Shown here piece by piece: positions 948 through 58,450 of a stretch of 64,000 nucleotides of DNA. The stretch is taken from assembly GCF_900104045.1 (NCBI RefSeq), contig NZ_FNIN01000001.1:124001-188000 (forward strand). The letters are read 5' to 3'. The position numbers and the translations under genes are program-made. Positions within the stretch are counted from its first letter, which is position 1; every line of letters starts with the position of its first letter. The notes below the pieces were generated by a model. That model was not told the origin of the DNA. It did not search any database and saw only the letters and a program-made list of their open reading frames with translations. This DNA is from Desulfonauticus submarinus. Lineage in GTDB: Bacteria > Desulfobacterota > Desulfovibrionia > Desulfovibrionales > Desulfonatronovibrionaceae.

Positions 948-1044
948 AAGACAATGGATTGACTAGTTAAGAGATGGTGATTACTTGGTAAACTTATGGC
1001 AGAGCTCTGCGGTTGAAATTTTTTTCTGCTTAGGGAGGCTAGAA

Positions 1045-2463
1045 ATGAAAAAGCGGGTTTTCTTTTTTAATTTGGTAGTGAGTTTTTTATTTTTGGTTAG
1101 TGTGGCATGGGCTGGATTACCTGATTTTACTGAGTTGGCAGAAAAAGCAGGAAAGGCTGTTGTTAATATTGGAACAGTTAAGGTAATAAAAGGACCTAAT
1201 TTAAGAGGTTTTTTTCATAATTTTCCTAGAGGTGGCACTCCTTTTGATGACTTTTTTGATCAGTTTGAGAAGTTTTTTGGAAGACAATTAGAAAAACCCA
1301 GAAAACAGAGATCTCTTGGTTCTGGATTTATTATTTCTCCTGATGGTTATATTGTAACTAATAATCATGTAGTAGAAGGTGCAGATCAAATTAAAGTTAC
1401 TTTTCATAGTAAAAACGGGGAAAAGACTTATAATGCAAAGATAGTAGGAACAGATCCAGAAACAGATTTAGCCTTGTTAAAAATTAATGCTCATAATTTG
1501 CCTACGTTAGAATTTGGAGATTCAGATAAGTTAAAAGTTGGACAGTGGGTTGTGGCAATAGGAAATCCTTTTGGCTTAGATCATACAGTCACTGCTGGTA
1601 TTGTTAGTGCTAAAGGTAGAGTAATTGGCGAGGGTCCGTATGATAATTTTATTCAAACAGATGCTTCTATTAATCCAGGAAATAGCGGTGGACCTTTGTT
1701 AAATTTAGATGGAAAAGTGATAGGTATTAACACCGCAATTATTGCTTCTGGGCAGGGAATAGGTTTTGCGATTCCTAGTAATTTGGCTAAACGCGTAATT
1801 GAACAGCTAAAAAAGAACAAAAAAGTAAGACGTGGTTGGTTAGGAGTTACTATTCAAGATGTAGATGAAAATACAGCAAAGGCTTTAGGACTAGAGAAAG
1901 CAAAAGGAGCTTTGGTTGCCTCTGTAACTCCTGGAGATCCAGCAGATAAAGCAGGCGTTAAGCCAGGAGATGTGATTATTGCTGTTAATGGAAGACCAGT
2001 GGAAGATTCTTCTGATCTTACGAGAAAAATAGGCAATCTTTTACCTGGGACTAAAATTACTATTTCTGTGTGGAGAAAAGGTAAAATAAAAGAATTAAAA
2101 GTAATATTAGGAGAAAGAGATTTAAGAAAACTTGCTCGAACAAGTTCTAAAGTCCAGGAATTTACGTTTGGAGAACTTGGTATAAGTGTGAGACCAATTA
2201 CTCCAAAAGAAGCTAAGGCTTTAGGTTTAAATAGTGTAAAAGGTCTTTTGATTACTGCTGTGGAAGATAATTCTTTGGCAGATAGAAGTGATATTCGTCC
2301 AGGTGATGTTATTTTGGAAGCTAATGGGCATGAAGTAGATAGTGTTCATGAGCTTGAAAAGATTTATTTAAAAGATGCTAAACCTAAAAAAGTGTTGATG
2401 TTATTGCTTAGACGGAATGGACAAAATTTATTTAGAACAATTTCTTTAGAAGATATAAAATAG
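1045..2463 (+). CDS. degP: Periplasmic serine endoprotease, DegP/HtrA (Do) family
   Basis: 472 residues. The chosen ATG (1045) follows AGGGAGG by about six bases and begins a classical signal peptide (MKKRVFFF...SVAWA); a longer frame from 985 would bury that signal and is rejected. The trypsin-like domain carries the triad His108 (TNNHVVEG), Asp141 (DPETDLALL) and Ser214 (PGNSGGP). Two PDZ domains follow, roughly residues 270-370 and 385-470, each with a PGDVI motif, as in Do proteases. The family degrades or refolds damaged envelope proteins in the periplasm. It stands directly upstream of ispE (8-base gap), so the two are probably co-transcribed. Length and domain order are normal. Confidence 0.95.
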   Translation: MKKRVFFFNLVVSFLFLVSVAWAGLPDFTELAEKAGKAVVNIGTVKVIKGPNLRGFFHNFPRGGTPFDDFFDQFEKFFGRQLEKPRKQRSLGSGFIISPDGYIVTNNHVVEGADQIKVTFHSKNGEKTYNAKIVGTDPETDLALLKINAHNLPTLEFGDSDKLKVGQWVVAIGNPFGLDHTVTAGIVSAKGRVIGEGPYDNFIQTDASINPGNSGGPLLNLDGKVIGINTAIIASGQGIGFAIPSNLAKRVIEQLKKNKKVRRGWLGVTIQDVDENTAKALGLEKAKGALVASVTPGDPADKAGVKPGDVIIAVNGRPVEDSSDLTRKIGNLLPGTKITISVWRKGKIKELKVILGERDLRKLARTSSKVQEFTFGELGISVRPITPKEAKALGLNSVKGLLITAVEDNSLADRSDIRPGDVILEANGHEVDSVHELEKIYLKDAKPKKVLMLLLRRNGQNLFRTISLEDIK

Positions 2464-2471
2464 TGTTTTAA

Positions 2472-3323
2472 ATGGATGAAGTTTTATTAGTTTCTAGATG
2501 TAAGGTTAATTTGTTTTTAAAGATAGGAGAGAGGTTAGCAAATGGTTACCATTTGCTAACCTCTCTGTTTTTTCCTCTACCATATCCAACGGATGAAATA
2601 AAAGTAACGTTAACTTCTGAAGAAAGTTTTTTTTTGACTTCTAATTTTAAATTTTTAGAACAAAATAATATTTTAGAAAAATGTTTTTGGCTTTTTAAAA
2701 AGGAAACAGGATTTCAAGGAGGATGTAAAGTTTATTTAAATAAAAAAGTACCAATTGGAGCTGGACTTGGAGGCGGAAGTGCTAATGCGGCAGTGTTTTT
2801 GAATTTTTTAAATCACCTTTTACCAACTCCTCTAGGTAAAAATTCTTTAATTAGAATAGCTTCTCAGTTGGGTGCAGATGTTCCTTTTTTTTTATTTAAC
2901 AAACCTTCTTGGGTTGAAGGGATTGGAGAAAAGATAGAGCCCTTAGCTATTGATTTAACAGGGCTGAAAGGCTTGTTAATTTGTCCAAAAATTAAAATTT
3001 CTACTAAATGGGCTTATGAATGTTGGGATAAAATCCAAATATCTAAAAAATCTTTCTTGACATTATCCGCTTGGATAAATAAAAAGTCTGTTTCTCAGGG
3101 ACGGATTGTTCTTTTAAATGATTTTGAAAAGATAATATTTCATGCCTACCCTCAAATGAGAGAGTTAAAAGAGGAAATGTTTAAGCTTGGTGCTTGCGGG
3201 GGAGGTTTGAGTGGGTCTGGTTCTGCAATGTTTTTTTTGTTTAGGGAAACAAAAAAGCAAAAACAGGCTCAAGCAGTTCTAGACAAATTAGGTTTATTGT
3301 CGTATAATTATTCTTTTGTCTAA
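2472..3323 (+). CDS. ispE: 4-diphosphocytidyl-2-C-methyl-D-erythritol kinase
   Basis: 283 residues, GHMP kinase family. IspE phosphorylates CDP-methylerythritol at the 2-hydroxyl, using ATP, in the non-mevalonate isoprenoid pathway of the cytoplasm. The ATP-binding motif is PIGAGLGGGSANAAV (about residue 95), the N-terminal CKVNLFLKIG and NGYHLL segments are family hallmarks, and GGGLSGSGSAMFF near residue 240 is the third GHMP motif. Length fits the family. The start at 2472 lies 8 bases after the degP stop, with no strong Shine-Dalgarno. Codons of the conserved GYH region contain a perfect 18-bp hairpin followed by a T-run (separate entry). tRNA-Gln and prs follow on the same strand. Confidence 0.95.
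   Translation: MDEVLLVSRCKVNLFLKIGERLANGYHLLTSLFFPLPYPTDEIKVTLTSEESFFLTSNFKFLEQNNILEKCFWLFKKETGFQGGCKVYLNKKVPIGAGLGGGSANAAVFLNFLNHLLPTPLGKNSLIRIASQLGADVPFFLFNKPSWVEGIGEKIEPLAIDLTGLKGLLICPKIKISTKWAYECWDKIQISKKSFLTLSAWINKKSVSQGRIVLLNDFEKIIFHAYPQMRELKEEMFKLGACGGGLSGSGSAMFFLFRETKKQKQAQAVLDKLGLLSYNYSFV
2528..2573 (+). terminator. Perfect 18-bp hairpin plus T-run inside ispE: possible intragenic terminator/attenuator
   Basis: The left arm AGAGAGGTTAGCAAATGG (2528-2545), a TTA loop and the right arm CCATTTGCTAACCTCTCT (2549-2566) pair without a mismatch. GTTTTTT follows at 2567-2573. Stem plus U-run has the form of a Rho-independent terminator reading along the coding strand, yet it lies about 20 codons into ispE. 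It would form in the mRNA only if ribosomes do not occupy it. Function is inferred from form alone. Confidence 0.5.
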
Positions 3324-3329
3324 CCTTGC

Positions 3330-3404
3330 TGGGGCGTCGCCAAGTGGTAAGGCAACGGGTTTTGGTCCCGTCATGCGAGGGTTCGAATCCTTCCGCCCCA
3401 GCCA
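3330..3404 (+). tRNA. tRNA-Gln (anticodon TTG)
   Basis: The acceptor arm TGGGGCG (3330-3336) pairs with CGCCCCA, and the T arm contains GGTTCGAATCC. The anticodon stem ACGGG/CCCGT encloses TTTTGGT, with anticodon TTG at 3362-3364, reading CAA/CAG. The CCA end is genome-encoded (3402-3404). It sits between ispE and prs on the same strand, probably within their transcript. Confidence 0.97.
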
Positions 3405-3425
3405 TTTTTTTGAGTGTGGTTTCAA

Positions 3426-4379
3426 ATGCCAAGACATGGTGAATTAAAAATTATTACTGGGACAGCAAATCCTGCCTTAGCAGAGGCAATTTGTAATCAT
3501 TTAGGGATGACTTTGTCTCCTACGCTGGTTAGTACGTTTAGTGATGGTGAGATTAGAGTAGAGGTTGGTGATAATGTAAGGGGAGATGATGTTTTTGTTG
3601 TCCAACCTACGTGTGCTCCTGTAAATCATAACTTAATGGAACTTTGTTTGATGTTAGATGCCTTAAAAAGGGCAAGTGTTGGGCGTGTTACTGCTGTAGT
3701 GCCTTATTATGGGTATGCTAGGCAAGATAGAAAAGTTGTTCCTAGGGTTCCTATAAGTGCAAAATTAGTAGCTGATTTTATTACTACTGCAGGGGTTAGT
3801 CGATTGTTAACAGTTGATCTACATGCAGGTCAAATTCAAGGCTTTTTTAATATCCCTGTGGATAATCTTTATGCAGCAGAAGTATTATTGGATTATATGA
3901 AATCTATTGAAGGAGATGTTGTAGTTGTGTCTCCTGATGCAGGTGGAACTGAAAGAGCAAGGGCCTATGCAAAAAGATTGGGGGCTGAACTTGCTATTAT
4001 TGATAAACGAAGAGATACTCCAAATAAAGCTCAGGCAATGAGAGTTATTGGAGAGGTTAAAGATAAAGTTGCTATAGTGCTTGATGATATGATTGATACT
4101 GCTGGTACCATGGTGGAGGCAGGTAGAGTTTTAAAAGAAAATGGGGCAAAAGAAGTGTATGCTTGTGCTACTCATCCTGTTCTTTCTGGTCCAGCAATAG
4201 AAAGACTTAAAAAATCTTGTTTTAAAGAGATTATAGTTACAGATACCATTCCTTTAAAGGAAGAAGCTGAGAAGTGTGGAAAGTTTAAAGTTATATCTGT
4301 TGCCAGTCTTATTGCAAAGGCAATTCACAACATACATACAGAGTCTTCTGTAAGTGTGTTGTTTTCTAGGATTAAGTAA
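3426..4379 (+). CDS. prs: Ribose-phosphate pyrophosphokinase (PRPP synthetase)
   Basis: 317 residues from the ATG at 3426. A GTG at 3414 is in frame but would add only four atypical residues, and family members start close to the [12 protein letters not shown] segment. The enzyme makes PRPP from ribose 5-phosphate and ATP for purine, pyrimidine, histidine and tryptophan synthesis. Seen: the ATP/Mg site [22 protein letters not shown], and the PRPP-binding loop [11 protein letters not shown] near residue 220. Length is normal for class I enzymes. It lies 21 bases after tRNA-Gln and 22 bases before rplY, in a conserved informational-gene cluster. Confidence 0.96.
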
Positions 4380-5035: not shown

Positions 5036-5066
5036 AAAAAAGCCCCTTTTAAGGGGCTTTTGTTTT
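5036..5066 (+). terminator. Rho-independent terminator after rplY
   Basis: AAAAGCCCC (5038-5046) pairs with GGGGCTTTT (5053-5061) around a TTTTAA loop, followed by GTTTT. It ends about ten bases before the pth start, so pth either depends on readthrough or has a promoter overlapping this site. Confidence 0.85.
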
Positions 5067-6517: not shown

Positions 6518-7765
6518 ATGAATTTATCTGAGTTGAAAAAGAAATCAATGGCAGAATTAATGGACCTTGCTTCTGAATTTAAAGTAGAAAATCCTAGTGG
6601 CCTAACTAAACAAGAATTAATTTTTTCTATTTTAAAAACCTATGCTGCCCAAAATGGTTCTATTTATGGAGAAGGTGTTTTAGAAATTCTTCCTGATGGT
6701 TTTGGTTTTTTGCGTTCTCCTATGTATAGTTATATGCCTGGACCAGATGATATTTATGTGTCTCCATCTCAAATTAGAAGATTTGGACTTAGAACTGGAG
6801 ATGTAGTTGCTGGACAAATTAGACCTCCAAAAGAGGCTGAGCGTTATTTTGCTTTATTAAGAATTAATGAAGTGTGCTTTGCTCCTCCTGAAGATGTTCG
6901 TAAAATCATTCTTTTTGATAATTTAACCCCTATTTATCCTAATGATAGATTTATTATTGAAAATGGTGCAGAAAATTATTCTTCTCGTATTATAGACCTG
7001 TTAACTCCTATAGGAAAAGGACAAAGAGGGCTTATTGTTGCTCCTCCTAGAACAGGGAAAACAATGCTATTACAAACTATTGCCAATTCTATTAATGCTA
7101 ATCATCCAGAAGTTTATTTAATTGTGTTATTAATTGATGAGCGACCAGAAGAAGTGACTGATATGGCACGTACAGTAAAGGCAGAAGTTATTAGCTCTAC
7201 TTTTGATGAGCCACCTCAGAGACATGTGCAGGTAGCAGAAATGGTTATTGAAAAGGCTAAACGCTTGGTAGAGCGAAAAATGGATGTAGTGATTTTATTA
7301 GACAGTATTACTAGATTGGCTAGAGCCTATAATGCTGTTACTCCTTCTTCTGGACGAGTTCTTTCTGGTGGTTTAGACGCTAATGCTTTACAAAGACCAA
7401 AAAGATTTTTTGGAGCTGCAAGAAATGTAGAAGAAGGTGGAAGTTTGACCATTATTGCAACTGCACTTATTGATACAGGCTCTAGGATGGATGAAGTTAT
7501 TTTTGAAGAGTTTAAAGGTACTGGAAATATGGATTTATATTTAGACAGACATTTAGCTGAAAAACGTATTTTCCCTGCAATTGATATTAATCGTTCTGGT
7601 ACTAGAAAAGAAGAACTTTTATTACCTTCAGATATTTTAAATAGGGTTTGGATTTTAAGAAAGGTATTAGCACCTATGAATCCTTTAGAGAGTATGGAAT
7701 TTTTGCTTGATAAAATGCGTGGAACAAAATCTAATAAAGAATTTTTAGATATGATGAATAAATGA
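6518..7765 (+). CDS. rho: Transcription termination factor Rho
   Basis: 415 residues, close to the canonical length. Rho is the hexameric RNA-dependent ATPase that ends transcription of untranslated RNA. Seen in order: N-terminal helical domain ([18 protein letters not shown]), RNA-binding cold-shock-like fold ([16 protein letters not shown]), P-loop APPRTGKT near residue 175, Walker [17 protein letters not shown], and the R-loop region [11 protein letters not shown]. The ATG follows AAGAGGAG at about 6500. The 184-base leader contains a 9-bp inverted repeat (TTTAAATAT...ATATTTAAA, 6442-6473) of unknown meaning; rho is often autoregulated in its leader. The stop overlaps the next start (ATGA). 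Confidence 0.97.
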
Positions 7766-9141
7766 TCTTCCGCACTGTTCGTTTTATTTTAAGTATTTTT
7801 TTATTTTGCTTTTATCCCTATACTTGCAATGCGTTTGGGGAGTTTAGCTTAAAAAAAGAAGCTGAATTAGGGAAAAAATTTAAAAAAATTATTCGTTCCC
7901 ATCTTCCTTTAATTCAAGATCCTGAAATTAATTCCTATGTTCGTCAAATGGTCTTTAAATTAGCTAAAAGTGCTCCTTACTATCCTTTTAAAATTGAAGT
8001 TGATGTGGTTCAAAACAATGCTATGAATGCATTTGCAACCTTGGCTGGCTATATGGTGGTATATTCAGGTATGGTTGAAAAAGTAGACTCAGATAGTGAA
8101 CTTGCAGGTGTTTTAGCTCATGAATTAGCTCATCTTACTCAACGTCATGTGGCTAAAAACATAGAACGTTCTCAACTAGTAAGCGTAGGAAGTATACTGA
8201 CTTTACTGGCAGGTATCTTAGTAGGAGGTAATACTCAAGCAGGACAGGCTTTGATGATAGGCTCAATTGCAGGAGCTCAAAGTGCTCTTTTAAAATATAC
8301 AAGAGAAAATGAAAGAGAAGCAGATCAAATAGGATTAAATTATTTGGTTAAAGCAGGATATGACCCTTGGGGAATGGTGGAAGTTTTTAAAAAAATAAGG
8401 AAACAACGTTGGTTAAGTGGAGGAACTTTACCTTCCTACTTATCAACTCATCCTGCAGTAGAAGAAAGGATCGGATATTTAGAAGATAGATTAAAACGTT
8501 TACGGGTGAAATCAGAGTTAAAAAAAAGTGTAGAACTTCAGCTTGTCCAGACTTTATTAAGATCCAAATATAATAGTCCTAAGGTGGCTTTACATTATTT
8601 TAAGGGTAATAGCTGTTATGATTTACTAGGCAAAGGGATTGTTTATGCCCGACTTAATGCTTTGGAAAAGGCGAAAAAATATTTTATTCTTTTGAATGAT
8701 ATTCCTGATTGTAAAAAAAATGCTGTATTTTATAGAGAAATTGGTAAGTTTTATTATCAATATGGCGAGTTAAATAAAGCTCTTTTGAATTTACAGAAGT
8801 CGTTTTTATTAAATTCAAAAGATAGTCTTACTCTTTTCTATTATGCAAGGGCTTTGGCAGAAGAAGGATTAATAAAAGAGGCTGAGAAATATTTCCAGGA
8901 ATGCTTAGTAAAAATGTTTTATAATGCCAATGTTCATGAAATAGTAGGGATATTTTATGGTAAACATAATAAGATGTTTAAAGCTCATTTGCACTTAGCT
9001 TATGCTTACCTTTTGCAACATAAGATAAAAAAGTTTAAATTTCACTTAAAGAAAGTTAAATTACTTGCTAAAACTTCTTCTCAAAAGCGAGAATTAGAAA
9101 AACTTCAAAAAGAATATAAAGAATTAACTAATAATTACTAA
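7762..9141 (+). CDS. M48-family metalloprotease with TPR domain (BepA-like), periplasmic
   Basis: 459 residues; the ATG at 7762 overlaps the rho stop by four bases, so translation is coupled. An N-terminal signal segment (about residues 1-24) is followed by an M48 domain with the zinc motif His120-Glu121-x-x-His124 ([11 protein letters not shown]). The third-ligand region is [13 protein letters not shown]. The C-terminal half, from about residue 265, consists of helical tetratricopeptide-like repeats ([17 protein letters not shown]). This is the layout of BepA/YfgC, which degrades or assists stalled outer-membrane protein assembly. The exact substrate here is unknown. The gene converges on the minus-strand ligase gene with an 8-base gap and no clear hairpin. 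Confidence 0.88.
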
Positions 9142-10390: not shown

Positions 10391-11185
10391 TTATAACCAT
10401 CTTTTTCTTCTACGATAATGTTTTACATTCCGATAGCTTTTTTTCTCTCCTCCATGTCCCATACCTAAATAAAATTCTCTTACATCAGGATTGTTGAGAA
10501 GTTCTTGAGCTTTGCCTTCCATTACAATTCTTCCATTTTCCATTATATAGGCAAAATCTGCAATATTCAAGGCAGCTCTTGCGTTTTGTTCTACTAAAAG
10601 GACAGATACTTGTTGTTCTTGATTGATTTTAGTTATTATTGCGAAGATTTCTTCTACTAAAAGAGGGGCAAGACCAAGGGATGGTTCATCTAATAATAGG
10701 AGTTTAGGGTTAGCCATAAGCGCTCTTCCAATAGCTAACATTTGTTGTTCTCCACCTGAGAGATATCCTGCCCATTGCTTGCGGCGTTCTTTTAATCTAG
10801 GAAAATAAGTATATACTTTTTCAAGATTTTTTTGAAAATTTTTAGGATTGGTATATGATCCACAGCGTAGATTTTCTTCTACAGTAAGTTCCTCAAAAAC
10901 ACGTCTTCCTTCCATGACTTGAAAAATACCTAAGCGAACTATTTTTTCTGGAGAAAAATTTTGTATTTCTTGATTGTGAAATAATATTTTCCCTTCGGTT
11001 ACTTCTCCATTTTCAGTTAAAAGTAACCCAGAAATTGCTTTTAATGTAGTTGTTTTGCCAGCACCATTAGCACCAAGAAGGGCTGTAATTTTGCCCTTCT
11101 TGGCTGTTAAAGATAATCCTTTTAGCACTAAAATGATTTGATCGTAAACAACTTCTACATTAGCAAGTTTTAAAATATTTTCCAT
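10391..11185 (-). CDS. livF: Branched-chain amino acid-type ABC transporter ATPase LivF
   Basis: 264 residues. Walker A GANGAGKTT, signature LSGGEQQ, Walker B LLLLDEPSLGLAP and the H-loop region VLLVEQNARAAL are all present. LivF is one of the two ATPases that power the HAAT family importers on the cytoplasmic face. The C-terminus carries a basic tail rich in Arg and Lys (SYRNVKHYRRRKRW) beyond the usual 235-240 residues. The tail's last codons lie beside the paaK-like start. The gene follows the binding-protein gene by four bases. Confidence 0.92.
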   Translation of the reverse strand: MENILKLANVEVVYDQIILVLKGLSLTAKKGKITALLGANGAGKTTTLKAISGLLLTENGEVTEGKILFHNQEIQNFSPEKIVRLGIFQVMEGRRVFEELTVEENLRCGSYTNPKNFQKNLEKVYTYFPRLKERRKQWAGYLSGGEQQMLAIGRALMANPKLLLLDEPSLGLAPLLVEEIFAIITKINQEQQVSVLLVEQNARAALNIADFAYIMENGRIVMEGKAQELLNNPDVREFYLGMGHGGEKKSYRNVKHYRRRKRWL

Positions 11186-24231: not shown

Positions 24232-24245
24232 TTAATTTAAAAAAC

Positions 24246-24278
24246 AAAAAGGCAGTGAAAACCACTGCCTTTTTGTTT
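24246..24278. terminator. Bidirectional Rho-independent terminator between cheX and the metallo-hydrolase gene
   Basis: AAAAAGGCAGTG (24246-24257) pairs with CACTGCCTTTTT (24263-24274) around AAAAC. Runs of A before and T after give a U-tract in either direction. It serves two convergent genes. Confidence 0.9.
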
Positions 24279-24973
24279 TAAGATAATTTTATTATTTCTT
24301 CTACGTTAGCTTCTATTAATTGAGTATTAGGTGCATATTGAGTTAAGTATTTTTTAAATGCATCTGTATTTTGCTCTAAAACAGGAAATGATCCCCAATG
24401 CATTGGAATTACATTTTTACATTTAAGCATTTTACAAGCATAAGCTGCCTGTTTAGGATCCATTGTAAATGTTCCACCAATAGGAAGCAAAGCTAAATCA
24501 ATATTATATAATTCTCCCCAAATGTTCATGCTATTAAAAATTCCTGTATCTCCAGCATGATATATAGTATATCCATTTTCAAGTTGAACTATAAATCCAA
24601 CAGGATTTCCTTTTTCCGAAGAATGAAATGCTTGGGTCATAGTAATTTGAATATCTTTGAATTTTACTGTGCCTCCAATATTAAAGCCAATTCCATTTAA
24701 AATTTGCTCGGTTGGAACACCTTGAGAGGCACAAGCATTGGCTATTTCTACAATAGTTCCCAAGTGGGCTTTAAAGTGCTTACATATTTCTATTGCTTGT
24801 CCTAAGTGGTCTGCATGATCATGGGTTACTAGAACTAAATCTACTTTTTTTAAATCTTTAAATCCTATTTTAGCTGCAGGATTGCCTTCAAACCATGGAT
24901 CAATTAAAATATTAAGATTAGGAGTAATTATTTCAAAATTTGCATGACCATGCCATATTATTTGGTTAGACAT
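24278..24973 (-). CDS. UPF0173-family metallo-beta-lactamase-fold hydrolase
   Basis: 231 residues. The metal motif THDHADHLGQ (HxHxDH form) near residue 50, WHGHANFEI at the N-terminus, the AGDTGIF segment and the final IPMHWGSFP are the hallmarks of the YtkL/UPF0173 group of predicted metal-dependent hydrolases. Substrate unknown. AAGGAGGGA stands just upstream of the ATG at 24973. It follows ubiX by 20 bases on the same strand and is probably co-transcribed with it. Confidence 0.9.
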   Translation of the reverse strand: MSNQIIWHGHANFEIITPNLNILIDPWFEGNPAAKIGFKDLKKVDLVLVTHDHADHLGQAIEICKHFKAHLGTIVEIANACASQGVPTEQILNGIGFNIGGTVKFKDIQITMTQAFHSSEKGNPVGFIVQLENGYTIYHAGDTGIFNSMNIWGELYNIDLALLPIGGTFTMDPKQAAYACKMLKCKNVIPMHWGSFPVLEQNTDAFKKYLTQYAPNTQLIEANVEEIIKLS

Positions 24974-36172: not shown

Positions 36173-37657
36173 ATGAGTGCGGAAGAAAAACAGCAGCAAC
36201 AACAAGCCCCTGCTCAAGAAGGTGAAAGTTCTCTTTTAGATGAAATTATTGAGGCTACCCGGGTTAAGCCTTCTGATGAGACTTATTCTATCACTAAAAG
36301 GGGAGTGAAGGCCTTTATAGATGAATTGTTAAAACCTTCAAGAGAAGGTGTAAAAGTTAGTAAGTCTCTTGTAGATGAAATGATTGCTCAATTGGACTCA
36401 AAGCTTTCTGCTCAGGTAAATGAGATTTTACACCATAAAGATTTTCAAACGTTAGAATCTGCATGGAGATCTTTAAAATATTTAGTTGATAATACAGATT
36501 TTAGAGAAAATATTAAGATAAATATGGTAAATATTAGTAAACAGGATCTGTTAGATGATTTTGAAGATGCTCCAGAAGTAACTCAGTCTGGATTATATAA
36601 GATTGTCTATTCTGCAGAATATGGGCAATTTGGTGGGCAACCTTATGGAGCAATGATTGGTAACTATGATTTTGGTCCAGGTCCTCAAGATATTAAATTA
36701 CTTCAAAATGTTGCAAGTGTAGCTGCTATGGCCCATGCTCCTTTTATTGCAGCAGCTTCTCCTGAATTTTTTGGCATAGATTCTTTTACAGAACTACCAA
36801 ATCTAAAAGATCTAGAAGCTATTTTTGAAGGTCCTCAATATGCGAAATGGCGTTCTTTTAGGGAATCTGAAGATGCTCGCTATGTGGGGCTTACTTTACC
36901 TAAGTTTCTTTTACGTCTTCCTTATGGCCCTGATACTGTTCCCGCAAAGACCTTTAATTTTAAAGAAGATGTTTCTTCTGGAGATGATGCTTTCTTATGG
37001 GGAAATACAGCTTTTGCTTTTGCTGCCAGGCTTACTGATAGTTTTGCTAAGTATAGATGGTGTGCGAACATTATTGGTCCTCAAGGAGGAGGAGCGGTTG
37101 AAAATCTACCAGTTTATAATTTTGAATCCATGGGTACTTTACAAACAAAGATACCTACACAGGTATTAATTTCAGAAAGAAAGGAATATGAATTAGCAGA
37201 ACAAGGGTTTATTGCTTTAACTATGAGAAAAGGTTCTGATAATGCAGCTTTCTTTTCTGCAAATTCCTGTCAAAAGCCTAAAAGTTTTGGTAATACTAAA
37301 GAAGGTAAAGAAGCAGAATTAAATTATAAGTTAAGTACTCAACTCCCATATATGTTTGTAGTAAATCGTCTAGCTCATTATATTAAGGTTATTCAGAGAG
37401 AACATATTGGTACCTGGAAACAACGCGGAGATCTCGAAGACGAACTTAATAAATGGATTAGACAGTATGTTGCAGATCAGGAAAATCCTGCTCCTGGTGT
37501 AAGGTCTAGACGTCCTCTTAGAAGAGCTGAGATTAAAGTAAGTGATGTAGCTGGTGATCCAGGATGGTATAGTGTAACAATGAAGATTATGCCTCATTTT
37601 AAATATATGGGAGCAAACTTTACTTTATCTTTGGTTGGTAAATTGGATAAAGAATAG
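36173..37657 (+). CDS. tssC: T6SS contractile sheath large subunit TssC (VipB)
   Basis: 494 residues, normal length. Family signatures are LESAWRSLKYLVDNTDFRE, SAEYGQFGGQPYGAMIGNY, FAARLTDSFAKYRWCANIIGPQGGGAV (in parts), and the C-terminal VADQENPAPGVRSRRPLR. It pairs with TssB to build the sheath. A glutamine run follows the start (EEKQQQQQAPAQ). An AAAGGAGGG site precedes the ATG; hcp follows 23 bases later. Confidence 0.97.
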   Translation: MSAEEKQQQQQAPAQEGESSLLDEIIEATRVKPSDETYSITKRGVKAFIDELLKPSREGVKVSKSLVDEMIAQLDSKLSAQVNEILHHKDFQTLESAWRSLKYLVDNTDFRENIKINMVNISKQDLLDDFEDAPEVTQSGLYKIVYSAEYGQFGGQPYGAMIGNYDFGPGPQDIKLLQNVASVAAMAHAPFIAAASPEFFGIDSFTELPNLKDLEAIFEGPQYAKWRSFRESEDARYVGLTLPKFLLRLPYGPDTVPAKTFNFKEDVSSGDDAFLWGNTAFAFAARLTDSFAKYRWCANIIGPQGGGAVENLPVYNFESMGTLQTKIPTQVLISERKEYELAEQGFIALTMRKGSDNAAFFSANSCQKPKSFGNTKEGKEAELNYKLSTQLPYMFVVNRLAHYIKVIQREHIGTWKQRGDLEDELNKWIRQYVADQENPAPGVRSRRPLRRAEIKVSDVAGDPGWYSVTMKIMPHFKYMGANFTLSLVGKLDKE

Positions 37658-38643: not shown

Positions 38644-40361
38644 TGCTGGTAAAGGATTATTATCAACAGCAATTGGATAGATTACGAAGATTAGCTCAAG
38701 AATTTGCAAAATCTCATCCAGCTCTTGCTCCTATGTTGTCTGGTCAATCTAGAGATCCAGATGTGGAAAGATTATTAGAAGGAATGGCCTATTTGACAGG
38801 CATGCTTACTGCTAGATTAGATGATAGTTTCCCTGAGATTGTTCATACTCTTATTCAGCTTTGCTCTCCTCAATATTTAAGACCAATCCCTTCCAGTACG
38901 ATTATTCAATTTGTCCCTGATAGAAGTATTAAAGATTGTTTGACGATTAAAGCAGGTACGGAAATTAATTCTATTCCTGTAGAAAAAGAACGTTGTATTT
39001 ATAGAACTTGTATAGATGTATTGGTATATCCGATTTTTATTTCAGAAGTAGAACATAAGGAAAATATTGGTCAAGATCCTGTTATTAGAATTTCATTTCA
39101 GGGAAGAGATTCTTATCCAGAAAATCTTCCGCCTTATATTCGACTTTTTTTAAGGGGCAGTTTTGTTCATACCTCAAATTTATTCTATATTCTTACCACT
39201 AAAGTAAAAAAGATAGTTTTTAAAGATGAGAATAAAGAGCTATCTTTATCTCCCAAAGAGATAAAAGCACCTTTTTTTAGTTTAGAAAAAGCCCTTTTCC
39301 CTTATCCGAAAAATTCTTTTCCTGCATTTCGTTTATTTCAGGAGTATTTTGTTTTACCAGAAAAATTTTTATTTTTAGATATTTATGGATGGGATAAATG
39401 GAGAGAAAGTGGAGGAAATCCAAATTTTGAAATAGAGTTTTTATTAGACAAAAAGACAGAATGTGGGCGAATAGAAGAAAAAAATTTTTCTTTATTTTGT
39501 ACTCCAGCGGTCAACTTATTCAAACATGAAGCTGTTCCTATAGAGTTAGATCATCGTTCTTTTGAATATAAAATTATTCCAGGAGGACAAAAAGGAAGTA
39601 CATATTCTATCTTTAGTATAGATAGAGTTATGGGTATTGTGCAGGGAAGTGTAGAAAAAAAAGAGTACTTGCCTCTGGAAATAATTGGAACAGATAAAGT
39701 AAGTGGGACATATTACCAAAATATCAGGTTGTCTCCTACTTCAGGTAAGCCAGAATTATATGTTAGTGTGGGGTATAGTGGAAAAGAAGATTTGCAGAGA
39801 GAAATTTTAGTTATAGATTTAACATGTACTCATGGGGAAAGAGTAAACTCTTTACAAATAGGTGATATATGTGAAGAAACAGACTCTTCTCCTACTTTAT
39901 GTTCTTTTGAGAATATTATTACTCCTACTCCGAACTATTATCCTGTGATAGATAAGGATAACTTATGGAGATTTATGTCCCATTACAACATCAATATTTT
40001 TTCCTTAAAAAATGCAAGCAAATTAAGGGAAATATTAAGTCTATATTTGGATTTTCAAATAAAAGATACGCAAAGATTTTTTGCTAATAAAAGGAGAATA
40101 GATGGGATTCTAGATCTAAAGATTAAGCAAGGAGCAAGATTGCATAAGGGAAATATGTTGATGGGACATGATATAAATATAGTTTTATCTTCAGAAAATT
40201 TTAGTAGCTATGGAGATATGTATATTTTTATAAAAATTTTAGATTATTTTTTCTCTTATTATGCAGCAATTAATTCTTATATTAGGCTTGTTGTAAAAGA
40301 TTCAAAAACAGGAGAAATTTTAGAGTGTCCAGCCAGATTTGGGGAACAGCTATTAATTTAA
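38643..40361 (+). CDS. tssF: T6SS baseplate wedge protein TssF
   Basis: 572 residues, normal family length. It opens with DYYQQQLDRLRRLAQEFAKSHP and GMAYLTGMLTARLDDSFPEI, followed by LIQLCSPQYLRPIPSSTIIQF, all diagnostic of ImpG/VasA. TssF joins TssE and TssG in the wedge bound to TssK and VgrG. Overlaps tssE by one base and tssG by 37 bases, indicating tight translational coupling. Confidence 0.95.
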   Translation: MLVKDYYQQQLDRLRRLAQEFAKSHPALAPMLSGQSRDPDVERLLEGMAYLTGMLTARLDDSFPEIVHTLIQLCSPQYLRPIPSSTIIQFVPDRSIKDCLTIKAGTEINSIPVEKERCIYRTCIDVLVYPIFISEVEHKENIGQDPVIRISFQGRDSYPENLPPYIRLFLRGSFVHTSNLFYILTTKVKKIVFKDENKELSLSPKEIKAPFFSLEKALFPYPKNSFPAFRLFQEYFVLPEKFLFLDIYGWDKWRESGGNPNFEIEFLLDKKTECGRIEEKNFSLFCTPAVNLFKHEAVPIELDHRSFEYKIIPGGQKGSTYSIFSIDRVMGIVQGSVEKKEYLPLEIIGTDKVSGTYYQNIRLSPTSGKPELYVSVGYSGKEDLQREILVIDLTCTHGERVNSLQIGDICEETDSSPTLCSFENIITPTPNYYPVIDKDNLWRFMSHYNINIFSLKNASKLREILSLYLDFQIKDTQRFFANKRRIDGILDLKIKQGARLHKGNMLMGHDINIVLSSENFSSYGDMYIFIKILDYFFSYYAAINSYIRLVVKDSKTGEILECPARFGEQLLI

Positions 40362-41308
40362 AACAAGAACTTGAACAACATTCTTCTAGTTTTAATTTTG
40401 TCCAAGCAATACGTTTGTTAAGAGTATTGTTAGATAAAAATAAATCTTTGGATAGAATATTAGAAGAGGATGTATTTGTAGAACCATTGCTTTCTTTAGC
40501 TTTTCCAGGGAGTGATATTTATAAGATAGAAAAAAGAGATGATAAATACCATGTGTTAGCTACTTTTTTGGGATTATATGGTCCATCATCTCCCTTACCC
40601 GTTTATTATACAGAAGAAATTATTAATGAAAGATTAGAAGAAAAAAGTGTTAAAAAAGATTTTTTGGATATATTTAATCATCCTTTTTATGAATTATTTA
40701 TTAAAATTTGGTTAAAATATAGAATATGGTTGAAGATAATTGATGAAAAAGATGAAGAAAGTTTGAATTTTATATATGCTTTTTTAGGATTAGATTATCT
40801 TGAAATTGAGTCTAAAGAAAAGAGAAACTTTTTAAGATATGCTGCTCTTTTTTGCCAAAGACCAAGATCTGCTATAGGCATTAAAGCAATTGTTTCTGAT
40901 TTTTTGAATGAAGATAAGGTAGAAATACGACAATGTGTTGAGGTACAGGTTGAAATTCCTGTGCAACAACGAGTGGCTTTAGGTAAAGAGAATACCGTAT
41001 TAGGAGAAGATTTATTTTTAGGGAAGAAGGTTTCTAGCAGAAACTTAGCAGTAGAAATTAAGGCTGGTCCTTTAAAAAAGGATGCTTTTAAAAAGATTGT
41101 TCCAGTAAACAATAATTTTAAAAGATTACAACATTATTTAAGATTATATATGGAACTTCCTTTACAGTGCAATTTTATTCCTGTTTTAAAATCTTCTGAT
41201 GCTTCTCCACTATCTCTGGGTAAAGAATGGTGTTTTTTAGGGGTTAATAGCTGGATATATACAAAAGATAAGTACAAAGATAATTTAGTAGGTTTATGGA
41301 AGATTTAA
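40325..41308 (+). CDS. tssG: T6SS baseplate wedge protein TssG
   Basis: 327 residues from a GTG at 40325 that has AGGAG about nine bases upstream, inside tssF. The ImpH/VasB signatures FNFVQAIRLLRVLLDK, ATFLGLYGPSSPLPVYYTEEI and FFNHPFYELFIKIWLKYR-like (here IFNHPFYELFIKIWLKYR) are present. It is a wedge subunit that dimer-bridges TssF. A 44-base gap separates it from clpV. Confidence 0.93.
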   Translation: MSSQIWGTAINLKQELEQHSSSFNFVQAIRLLRVLLDKNKSLDRILEEDVFVEPLLSLAFPGSDIYKIEKRDDKYHVLATFLGLYGPSSPLPVYYTEEIINERLEEKSVKKDFLDIFNHPFYELFIKIWLKYRIWLKIIDEKDEESLNFIYAFLGLDYLEIESKEKRNFLRYAALFCQRPRSAIGIKAIVSDFLNEDKVEIRQCVEVQVEIPVQQRVALGKENTVLGEDLFLGKKVSSRNLAVEIKAGPLKKDAFKKIVPVNNNFKRLQHYLRLYMELPLQCNFIPVLKSSDASPLSLGKEWCFLGVNSWIYTKDKYKDNLVGLWKI

Positions 41309-56600: not shown

Positions 56601-57390
56601 ATCTTTGGAAAATGCCAATTTGGAAAAAGGTATTTTTGATAATGCAAAATTTATAAATGCTAATCTTAGAGGAGCTAATCTTAGAGAGGTGTTTGCAGAA
56701 AAAGCAGATTTTGAAGGAGCAGATATTTCTAAGGCAGATCTTCAAGGAATATCTTTTATTGAGGCAAAATTAAAAGGGATTAAGGGAAAAGAGATTAAAG
56801 CTGATGGTGGAGTATTTTTGCAAGTTGAGGCCTCAAAAGGAATATTTACTGGTGCTGATTTTAAAAAAGCTTTATTTTCTAAGGCATCATTAGAAGAAAG
56901 TGATTTTTCTGAAAGTAAAGTTTGCTCTACTATATTTACAGAGGTAAAGGCAAATAAGACAAAGTTTATTAAAGCAGACCTTTATAATAGTAGAATTATT
57001 AATAAATCTGATTTTTCAGAATCAGATTTTGTGGGAGCAAAGGCAAATAGATCTTGTTGGATGAAGTCAAAGTTATCTGATTCTGATTTTAAAGGTAGTT
57101 TGCTTGATCAAACATTGGTTCAGGAGTGTGATGTTTCTAGAAGTTCTTTGAGAGGTGTATGCGCTAAGAAAGCTCGTTTTGAAAGGTCTGATTTTTCAAA
57201 ATCAGATATGGAGGGAATAAATCTCTTTCAAGGTTCGCTTCGGAAAGCAAGACTTAATAATACAAATTTAAAAAAGGCAAACCTTTATGGAGTAGAATTT
57301 TATAAAACAAAGGTAAAAAATATAAATTTAGAAAATACAAACCTTAAAAAAACAAAACTTGAAGGAAGAGAGCAGACTATCCATGACTAG
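53671..57390 (+). CDS. DUF2169 - degenerate primase/Toprim-like - pentapeptide-repeat fusion protein 2
   Basis: 1,239 residues from the GTG at 53671, nine bases after AAGGG; the TTG at 53665 is too close to that site. Architecture and spacing are the same as in the protein at 47439. DUF2169 covers about 1-320 (SGMPKIKGEIIVYGSCFPPEG, PITWDRAFGGKEYKMNPLGKG). The primase/Toprim-like region spans about 510-720 (LTKIGFSDYTVKWAWLGF, SLWGLDQEEIFIPKGLVIPYF, VLVPGS, EEFEALLLHQEIWD, NIDLRKWF). The catalytic Glu position is Lys and DxD is lost. A coiled coil (750-895) and a pentapeptide beta-helix (about 915-1,235, GADFSSSLLEGTIF, NANLRGANL) complete it. The linker regions have diverged more than the end domains. 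The next gene starts inside its last codons. Confidence 0.75.
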   Translation: MRVIKDIHHGLLLNRFEIENKCYLVISILIFFDFDKPNYPLSEQEMWKFVQSYLGKEAILDSGMPKIKGEIIVYGSCFPPEGTAKVSTVGFGIKGIRKKLAVFGDRFWERKGGISIISEPKPFKEMPITWDRAFGGKEYKMNPLGKGIDPVILPNGREIVPLPNLEDPDHLIGSPADRPNPICFAPIDMMWPQRFKKQGTYDKKWLRERWPFYPEDMDWSFFNCASEDQQRDGFFRGGEEFFIENMHPERPKIVSQIPALRQKCFVNKLKDLDNPEGETLFQEVETKIDTLILFPHALKGIALWRGTVEVLDDEALDVLHIFVATENLLDNAKDIDYYYKIFQKKRKGEIDDLPEVQEAEVMLKKAEKELEIAKKELKELPKKINDSILRGLGERPKQSFTPNEIIKSALENIENSEQFFGKTELDLQGLREEFGHIVKIESINMKNTMQENIGKIKETVKTFGQELNAINKNVQASKEEIKSKFEAGLKGGIKDKIVEIKDFLDFLDKKEDPWLLSGMEFLQECRLQLLKDKEKMEILTKIGFSDYTVKWAWLGFNQKDRQYKGSLWGLDQEEIFIPKGLVIPYFEKDTLKKLVIRPDIIPDNSKDVLVPGSKEKNYLLSTAVVEGIVVVVKEEFEALLLHQEIWDIALVVVISNPKEEVDKNTESLLQQASCILIPEYSVDYIQACKEKFSQLDSIVMPDKINNIILMKSKNIDLRKWFLSVIRPDIKKELIDLAKAENINLEEEFLFSFDLVSKRVNNVIKKDTNTEKIEELKNLKNEIIANIKDKLRKIGVSDKTLEDITKDSEESKKSSEEFIFSAREKLSHIIKKTKMKLESSGFLTENSKKILEEIENTHLNALQNAQVKLQDAKQKIQNTEELFSKTDYKPNWAKELIADNIKLKEYYEKLTREKVIELYNKGESFAGKDISGVDLSRLHLDGADFSSSLLEGTIFKESSLNNANFSKAIASNTDFSNASLENANLEKGIFDNAKFINANLRGANLREVFAEKADFEGADISKADLQGISFIEAKLKGIKGKEIKADGGVFLQVEASKGIFTGADFKKALFSKASLEESDFSESKVCSTIFTEVKANKTKFIKADLYNSRIINKSDFSESDFVGAKANRSCWMKSKLSDSDFKGSLLDQTLVQECDVSRSSLRGVCAKKARFERSDFSKSDMEGINLFQGSLRKARLNNTNLKKANLYGVEFYKTKVKNINLENTNLKKTKLEGREQTIHD

Positions 57391-58450
57391 AGAAGAACTT
57401 CTTGAAGCTATAAAAAGAGATGAGACTATAGAAAATCAAGATTTACGAGGTATGGATTTACGAGGTCTTGATTTTACTGGGGTTAGATTTGAGAATGTGG
57501 ATTTTAGTGGTGCTGATTTAAGAGATTGTAAGATCAAGAAGACTGGTTTTAATGGATGTAAATTTCAGGATACTATAATGGAAGGAGCTGATCTTACTGA
57601 AGTGATTTGGATAGAGATAGATTTAAGTGGAGTTAAGTTGAATAATGCAGTACTTAGTGAAGCTGTATTGATTGAGGTAAAACTTAAAGGAGCTGAATTA
57701 AGATTTGGAAATTTGAAGAATATAATTATAAATGATTCAGATTTGGAAGGGATAGATTTAGAAAATAGTAATCTTTCCAGAGCAGTATTAACTAGGGTTA
57801 ATTTAAAGGGTGCTAATTTAAGTGGAACTGATCTTTCTCACACTATTTTTACTCAGGTTGATTTTCAAAATACTGTACTTAGAGGGGCTAAAATATTTAA
57901 AACTTTTATGCGAGATTCTTTTTTGCAAGGACAAGACTTTAGTGGATGTAAGTTTATAATGGCTCAAGTAGGTGGTTCTGATTTAAAAGGTTGTAACTTT
58001 AAAAAGGCTGATATTTCTCAATCGAATTTTTTAAATGCTAATTTGGAAGAGGTAAACTTTGAAAATACCACAGCTAGGCGAACTGTGTTTATGGGAGCAA
58101 AGTTAGAGCGAGCAATATTTAGAAAGGCTGATCTTTTTCAGGCATGTTTTGATGAAGGAGTAGTTACTCTAGTTGATTTTTCTGATGCTAATTTAGAGCA
58201 ATCAAGATTTGTTTGTGCTAAATGTGTTTCTACTTCTTTTAAAGGTGCTAATTGTTCCTATGTGGATTTTTCATATGCTAATTTAAAGTCTGCAGATTTA
58301 TCGTTTGCCAATCTTTATTGGGCTAAGATGCATAAAACAGAAGTGGATGGAGTGGTTTGGGATAAATCCATAGGACGTTCATCTATAAGGTGGACAGATA
58401 AGGATTTGGCAGAAGCAGAAAATTGGAAATCAAGTTTAAATATAGATTAA
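57383..58450 (+). CDS. Free pentapeptide-repeat protein 2 (T6SS spike cassette)
   Basis: 355 residues. The ATG at 57383 overlaps the previous stop by eight bases and gives MTREELLEAIKRDETIEN, aligned with the start of the first free PPR protein; a frame opening at 57359 is not needed. Nearly all of the chain is pentapeptide repeats (GADLRDCKI, GANLSGTDLSHTIF, DANLEQSRFVCA). A C-cap (WTDKDLAEAENWK) closes it. Translational overlap with the DUF2169-PPR gene implies related function, perhaps stacking on or competing with the fused PPR domain. Function unknown. Confidence 0.85.
   Translation: MTREELLEAIKRDETIENQDLRGMDLRGLDFTGVRFENVDFSGADLRDCKIKKTGFNGCKFQDTIMEGADLTEVIWIEIDLSGVKLNNAVLSEAVLIEVKLKGAELRFGNLKNIIINDSDLEGIDLENSNLSRAVLTRVNLKGANLSGTDLSHTIFTQVDFQNTVLRGAKIFKTFMRDSFLQGQDFSGCKFIMAQVGGSDLKGCNFKKADISQSNFLNANLEEVNFENTTARRTVFMGAKLERAIFRKADLFQACFDEGVVTLVDFSDANLEQSRFVCAKCVSTSFKGANCSYVDFSYANLKSADLSFANLYWAKMHKTEVDGVVWDKSIGRSSIRWTDKDLAEAENWKSSLNID

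Follow-up and report, generated by a model that had tools for sequence, protein, structure and literature searches.

A stem-loop within the ispE coding sequence of Desulfonauticus submarinus and its possible role as the 3′ boundary of the upstream htrA message

RESULTS

The htrA-ispE junction and the hairpin within ispE

The window analyzed here is a stretch of 64,000 nucleotides of the Desulfonauticus submarinus genome, and all positions are counted from its first letter. Near its start lies ispE, the product of which is a kinase of the isoprenoid pathway, directly behind a gene for an htrA/degP-type protease and ahead of tRNA-Gln and prs, all on the forward strand. The features of the locus are as follows.

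985..2463, + strand: htrA/degP-type protease gene directly upstream of ispE (start mechanical; TIGR02037 above cut-off)
2472..3323, + strand: ispE, which contains the hairpin (TIGR00154 above cut-off)
2528..2545, + strand: 5′ half of the 18-bp RNA stem (inverted repeat, RNA folding)
2546..2548, + strand: UUA loop (RNA folding)
2549..2566, + strand: 3′ arm of the stem (inverted repeat, RNA folding)
2567..2573, + strand: G plus a run of six U, made up of two Phe codons and the tail of the Leu codon before them
3280..3308, + strand: sigma-70-like promoter sequence TAGACA-17-TATAAT, 11/12, in the 3′ end of ispE (consensus match only)
3330..3404, + strand: tRNA-Gln(UUG)
3414..4379, + strand: prs, ribose-phosphate diphosphokinase (start mechanical; translation may in fact begin with the ATG at 3426)

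The original prediction described a perfect 18-bp hairpin inside ispE with a TTA loop and a trailing GTTTTTT, and we found all of these as described. Positions 2528-2566 form an 18-bp stem with 0 mismatches that closes on a UUA loop and is followed by GUUUUUU, and the same site read as DNA is an inverted repeat of 19+1+19 nt. The stem-loop occupies nt 57-95 of ispE and, together with the U-run, spans codons 19-34, ERLANGYHLLTSLF among them; the hairpin codons encode the motif R-L-x-N-G-Y-H-x-L. The spacer between stem and U-run is a single nucleotide, giving the stem-plus-U-run form of an intrinsic terminator.

The motif occurs only once in the 2.1-Mb genome, even with up to 3 mismatches allowed, and is therefore not a mobile repeat; this single copy and the absence of any insertion in the IspE region relative to homologues together rule out a mobile palindromic repeat or insertion. 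No known RNA family accounts for the hairpin either, since a search of Rfam 15 over 2528-2573 gave no match above the gathering score, the only hit being ylbH on the minus strand (22.7 versus 50 bits). Among the papers listed for ispE with terminators or hairpins and for htrA-ispE in Desulfovibrio, none concerned such an element, which is not proof of its absence.

The promoter-like sequence at 3280-3308 probably serves tRNA-Gln and prs, judging from its match to the consensus; of the other genomes of the genus that were compared, G001 shows by eye a similar TTGAAA-17-TATAAT, and G002 no more than a weak −10. The hairpin had been proposed to attenuate ispE, tRNA-Gln and prs or to act as an mRNA processing site. 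The hairpin may act in attenuation or processing, but control of tRNA-Gln and prs as the main role is made unlikely by the promoter-like sequence before tRNA-Gln, and the pointers of the comparative data to the htrA junction and the hairpins without a U-run in relatives, both described below, also count against it.

The hairpin is very unlikely to be a by-product of the coding sequence

The RNA MFE of positions 2500-2600 was −31.9 kcal/mol; 200 dinucleotide-shuffled versions gave −17.6 ± 3.1, which corresponds to a z of −4.6. Because the coding sequence is constrained, we also used a stricter null, in which synonymous codons were resampled to encode the same protein with the codon usage of the window's genes. 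None of 20,000 such recodings folded as stably as the ispE hairpin of the window, and when the same null was applied to all three genomes of the genus, the real stability was reached by 0, 2, and 16 of 20,000, with the hairpin stretch having the lowest z of ispE in every one of them. Among 658 coding stretches from the 48 open reading frames (ORFs) of the window, ispE ranked first (z −6.8; next, −4.6), and in a stem-then-U-run scan no other terminator-like hairpin of the window was as strong (−28.8 kcal/mol), the second being intergenic (−18.8). The earlier judgment that a chance palindrome was very unlikely thus holds under the synonymous-codon null.

These results bear on the explanation that the hairpin is due to chance or to coding, R-L-x-N-G-Y-H-x-L being a motif that predisposes to self-complementary codons. 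Such a predisposition is visible in 5000 recodings of L001, which gave stems of up to 17 bp and at least 13 pairs in 208 cases. However, recodings that fold as well as the real sequences are so few, the stretch is the strongest of the 658, and pairing is kept with changed letters within the genus (see below), that we consider this explanation highly improbable.

Five other ORFs of the window (36173-37657, 7762-9141, 10394-11185 on the minus strand, 57359-58450, and 40325-41308) have an early-coding stretch with z ≤ −3 and, with ispE, are the only ones among the 48 to do so, the start codons being mechanical. All five abut or overlap the preceding ORF (the computed gap of 40325 is an artefact of the rule), and their low-z stretches may represent additional stem-loops of this kind, placed within the second gene of a pair. 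A separate site at 24241-24279 is a perfect 17-bp intergenic inverted repeat with U-runs on both strands, resembling a bidirectional terminator.

Pairing, rather than sequence, is kept within the genus

The comparison within the genus covered three genomes, namely, the window genome, G001, and G002, in the last two of which IspE is 59% and 57% identical to the window protein. At the same ispE codons, G001 has 15 pairs (−23.3 kcal/mol) followed by GUUUUUA (GTTTTTA in DNA, where the window has GTTTTTT), and G002 has a long stem interrupted by a single A-C mismatch (−22.6 kcal/mol), again followed by a U-run. The original prediction had named pairing in close relatives as a check, which did not refute it: the pairing is kept in all three genomes and the letters are changed. 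Nine of the 18 pairs are invariant, 4 vary on one side, and 2 vary on both; in the remaining 3, the only departures are unpaired cells. Overall, 94% of cells are paired in the true register versus 39-52% with the register slid. Both double changes combine an amino acid change on the left (Asn/Ser and Ala/Glu) with a synonymous third-position change on the right.

Silent-site identity was 7/12, 9/12, and 5/10 in the hairpin, compared with 85/147, 84/143, and 78/133 outside it, so that the raised conservation of silent sites in the stem reported for E. coli was not seen in ispE of this genus. Since silent sites vary here as they do elsewhere in ispE, it is the pairing and not the sequence that is kept. 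The covariation score of only three sequences was reached by 53 of 500 shuffles and is hence weak. When only the differing codons were redrawn, between 1 and 38 of 4000 sequences matched the real stability in the six directions, and for some of these directions the bare pair count was ordinary, being matched by 1176 and 10463 of 20,000. Taken as comparative evidence, these results indicate that the stem-loop is under selection for RNA pairing.

A purely mutational origin can be envisaged, in which template switching perfects a quasi-palindrome or in which the palindrome matters as DNA, as a cruciform or protein site, and the perfect window copy is what template switching would produce. This origin is nevertheless hard to credit, and we assign it a very small probability: the departures in the stem core of the relatives are five wobble cells versus one mismatch, that is, 5 of 6 are G-U, which pair in RNA only (the number is too small for significance), and the hairpin is common to genomes whose IspE proteins are just 57-59% identical.

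A terminator-like hairpin also follows rplY, at apparently the same place in all three genomes (window, 5039-5060; L034, 4156-4176 on the minus strand; L035, 7034-7059).

Hairpin strength and the distance to the upstream gene

For the wider comparison, 247 genomes were searched and 243 gave a match; beyond an earlier set, 55 were analyzed (15 + 40 loci), hand-picked for spread over genera plus family f3. Scoring was applied to 114 loci, in 5 of which the motif was absent (L079, L106, L116, L125, and L129), leaving 109, of which 81 had an identified htrA upstream and 28 did not; omission of L072, L005, and L029, which have no upstream ORF, left 106. L073, L075, and L076, as second pieces or duplicates, were unscored, and G034 was left out, the motif not being found there. 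In G023, ispE is split over contigs C89 (L072) and C73 (L076) with the hairpin region in both, the assembly break adjoining the stem. The ispE gene on C35 of G057 (L074/L075), a 43%-complete genome, has a frameshift or stops that are probably a sequence error.

Most of the first 56 genomes scored had no unusual structure at these ispE codons. A strong stem was present at the same place in the four genomes compared from g10, a low-GC genus of family f2, with other letters, another register, and no U-run; the covariation score of these four sequences was reached by 21 of 500 shuffles and is hence weak. Several loci of family f3 were also extreme at the hairpin codons. From these cases came the idea that a hairpin arises where ispE directly adjoins the gene before it. 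The GYH codons of ispE also form strong stems in GC-rich L070 and L060 (g15) and in the g14/g11 loci of f3, with no U-run after the stem in the loci inspected.

Distances were taken between the stop codon of the upstream ORF and the KVN codon of ispE, which lies some 30 nt past the start of ispE. Across the 81 loci with htrA upstream, the Spearman correlation of distance with z was 0.55, compared with −0.04 for the next 99 nt of ispE, and across the 106 loci of the order it was 0.50, compared with −0.10, and thus no trend, for an adjacent control stretch of ispE, values to be read with the reservation that the gap idea derived from part of the loci later tested and that the species are related. 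Among the 106, z was below −2 at 16 of 23 loci with a distance of up to 50 nt, at 8 of 26 with 51-85 nt, and at 2 of 57 beyond. The 25 loci with an upstream ORF other than htrA, picked mechanically, gave 0.48 (p 0.015). The 31 htrA loci added after the idea arose gave 0.28 (p 0.13), and short versus long distance among these later loci gave p 0.016. At the level of 30 genus means, the rank correlation was marginal (rho 0.36, p 0.05), a value reached by 344 of 5000 within-family shuffles; the association was clearer only with cuts chosen afterwards, 45 of 10,000 shuffles reaching it with a cut at 70 nt. Some loci with short gaps have no unusual structure, for example, L069 (z −0.64) and L118 (z −0.51). 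The link between the ispE hairpin and a short upstream gap across the order, as it appears in these comparisons, is suggestive, not settled.

The same association also fits an effect on translation, in which the stem slows early ispE ribosomes and so cuts IspE output or tunes coupling to the htrA stop. The htrA stop and the ispE ATG are separated by just 8 nt in the window and by 0 and 4 nt in the other two genomes of the genus, and no clear Shine-Dalgarno sequence was seen by eye in these junctions, which together make reinitiation at ispE plausible. The stem, however, begins 56 nt past the initial A of the ATG, clear of the initiation footprint, and elongating ribosomes usually unwind such stems, so that we regard an effect on translation as improbable.

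Hairpins between htrA and ispE

The end of htrA could be identified in 41 genomes. In 13 of them, the gap between htrA and ispE holds a terminator-like hairpin with an energy of at most −12 kcal/mol, and in the other 28, no gap hairpin ahead of a U-run reaches this threshold. The gap hairpin started within 25 nt of the htrA stop and before ispE in 10 of the 41, 9 of which lacked an ispE hairpin (z > −0.6); G060 has both. A stem after htrA, whether placed in the gap or within the gene that follows, is common but far from universal. The ispE hairpin need not be a relic of an htrA terminator, given the 28 genomes without a gap hairpin.

The gap hairpins lend weight to the explanation that the ispE hairpin is itself an intrinsic terminator or attenuator, where polymerase arriving from htrA would halt at 2567-2573 if no ribosome on ispE were keeping the stem open; ispE expression would then track translation efficiency. 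Suppression of intrinsic terminators by closely following ribosomes has a precedent (PMC5021804). In all three genomes of the genus, a long stem is directly followed by a U-run, with d'Aubenton-Carafa scores of 3.3, −7.1, and 12.4. On the other hand, terminator stems are usually shorter than the ispE stem, the inspected hairpins that relatives beyond the genus have at these codons carry no U-run, and a terminator here would restrict an enzyme that is needed constantly. Nor does the U-run need selection, since it is, we infer, largely the product of Phe-Phe codons in an AT-rich genome. We therefore rate termination as the main function as rather unlikely.

DISCUSSION

The hairpin in ispE is real and selected, it resembles a known kind of structure but with an unusual U-run, and a wider rule is possible. 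The reading we favor, to which we give about an even chance, is that it is an mRNA stem-loop by which the 3′ end of the message of upstream htrA is set or protected, possibly with leaky termination in addition. The comparative data would place its site of action at the htrA junction, to which they point. We assume that htrA and ispE are co-transcribed on one message, of which the stem would form the 3′ boundary of the htrA part. Exonucleases moving 3′ to 5′, having degraded the ispE part, would halt at the stem, with the result that htrA mRNA would outlast and outnumber ispE mRNA. In this genus, the U-run may add leaky termination when ribosomes lag behind RNA polymerase. The stem would be written into ispE codons because ispE starts 8 nt after htrA, leaving no room between them. 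We rank protection above termination because the g10 stems lack a U-run and because Phe codons yield U-runs in AT-rich DNA.

A more general form of this reading is tentative, and we hold it with less confidence: whenever ispE abuts any upstream gene, the GYH-motif codons may be rewritten into a stem-loop that serves as the upstream 3′ end. The IspE enzyme would be kept in the process, and the rewriting would have had separate origins in g1, g10, g15, g11, and g14, which belong to three families, giving stems of different sequences and registers.

One DNA stretch here carries two codes, an almost ideal RNA stem being written over conserved residues of an isoprenoid kinase. Should the gap association be true, it offers a sequence-only predictor of the cutting or protection of operon messages in bacteria without RNA data, and the hairpins in the gap and those in the gene form a natural series on protection, termination, and translation restraint.

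Comparison with known systems

Three kinds of system are comparable. ORF-internal 3′ ends are known (PMC7815308), and closely following ribosomes suppress intrinsic terminators (PMC5021804). Like the translation-gated intragenic terminators of the latter report, the ispE hairpin combines a stem and a U-run within an ORF and would be suppressible by a close ribosome; unlike them, its termination is only predicted, and the hairpins outside the genus have no U-run. The SRPS loops, of the “stabilizer and terminator” class, are likewise operon-internal, are thought to set stoichiometry, and in some cases both stabilize and partly terminate, but they are intergenic, whereas the ispE hairpin lies within coding sequence.

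The third kind is the differential-decay structures of E. coli (PMC5927463). In that study, 17 of 26 structures presumed to protect the upstream gene sit inside the downstream coding sequence; the protective structures lie on average 107 ± 56 nt into the downstream gene, have no U-run, and are believed to guard the gene upstream against 3′-5′ exonucleases. The ispE hairpin is similarly a stable stem-loop early in the downstream gene (nt 57-95), at an operon-like same-strand junction with an 8-nt gap, and is kept in relatives (3/3 in the genus). It differs from the E. coli set in that a U-run follows it, a feature from which the g10 stems are free as the E. coli structures are, in that silent sites are not more conserved here but pairing is, and in belonging to another bacterial group. 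Because of the U-run, the likeness that we propose is one of function and not of strict membership: the ispE hairpin would work like the E. coli structures that protect the gene upstream.
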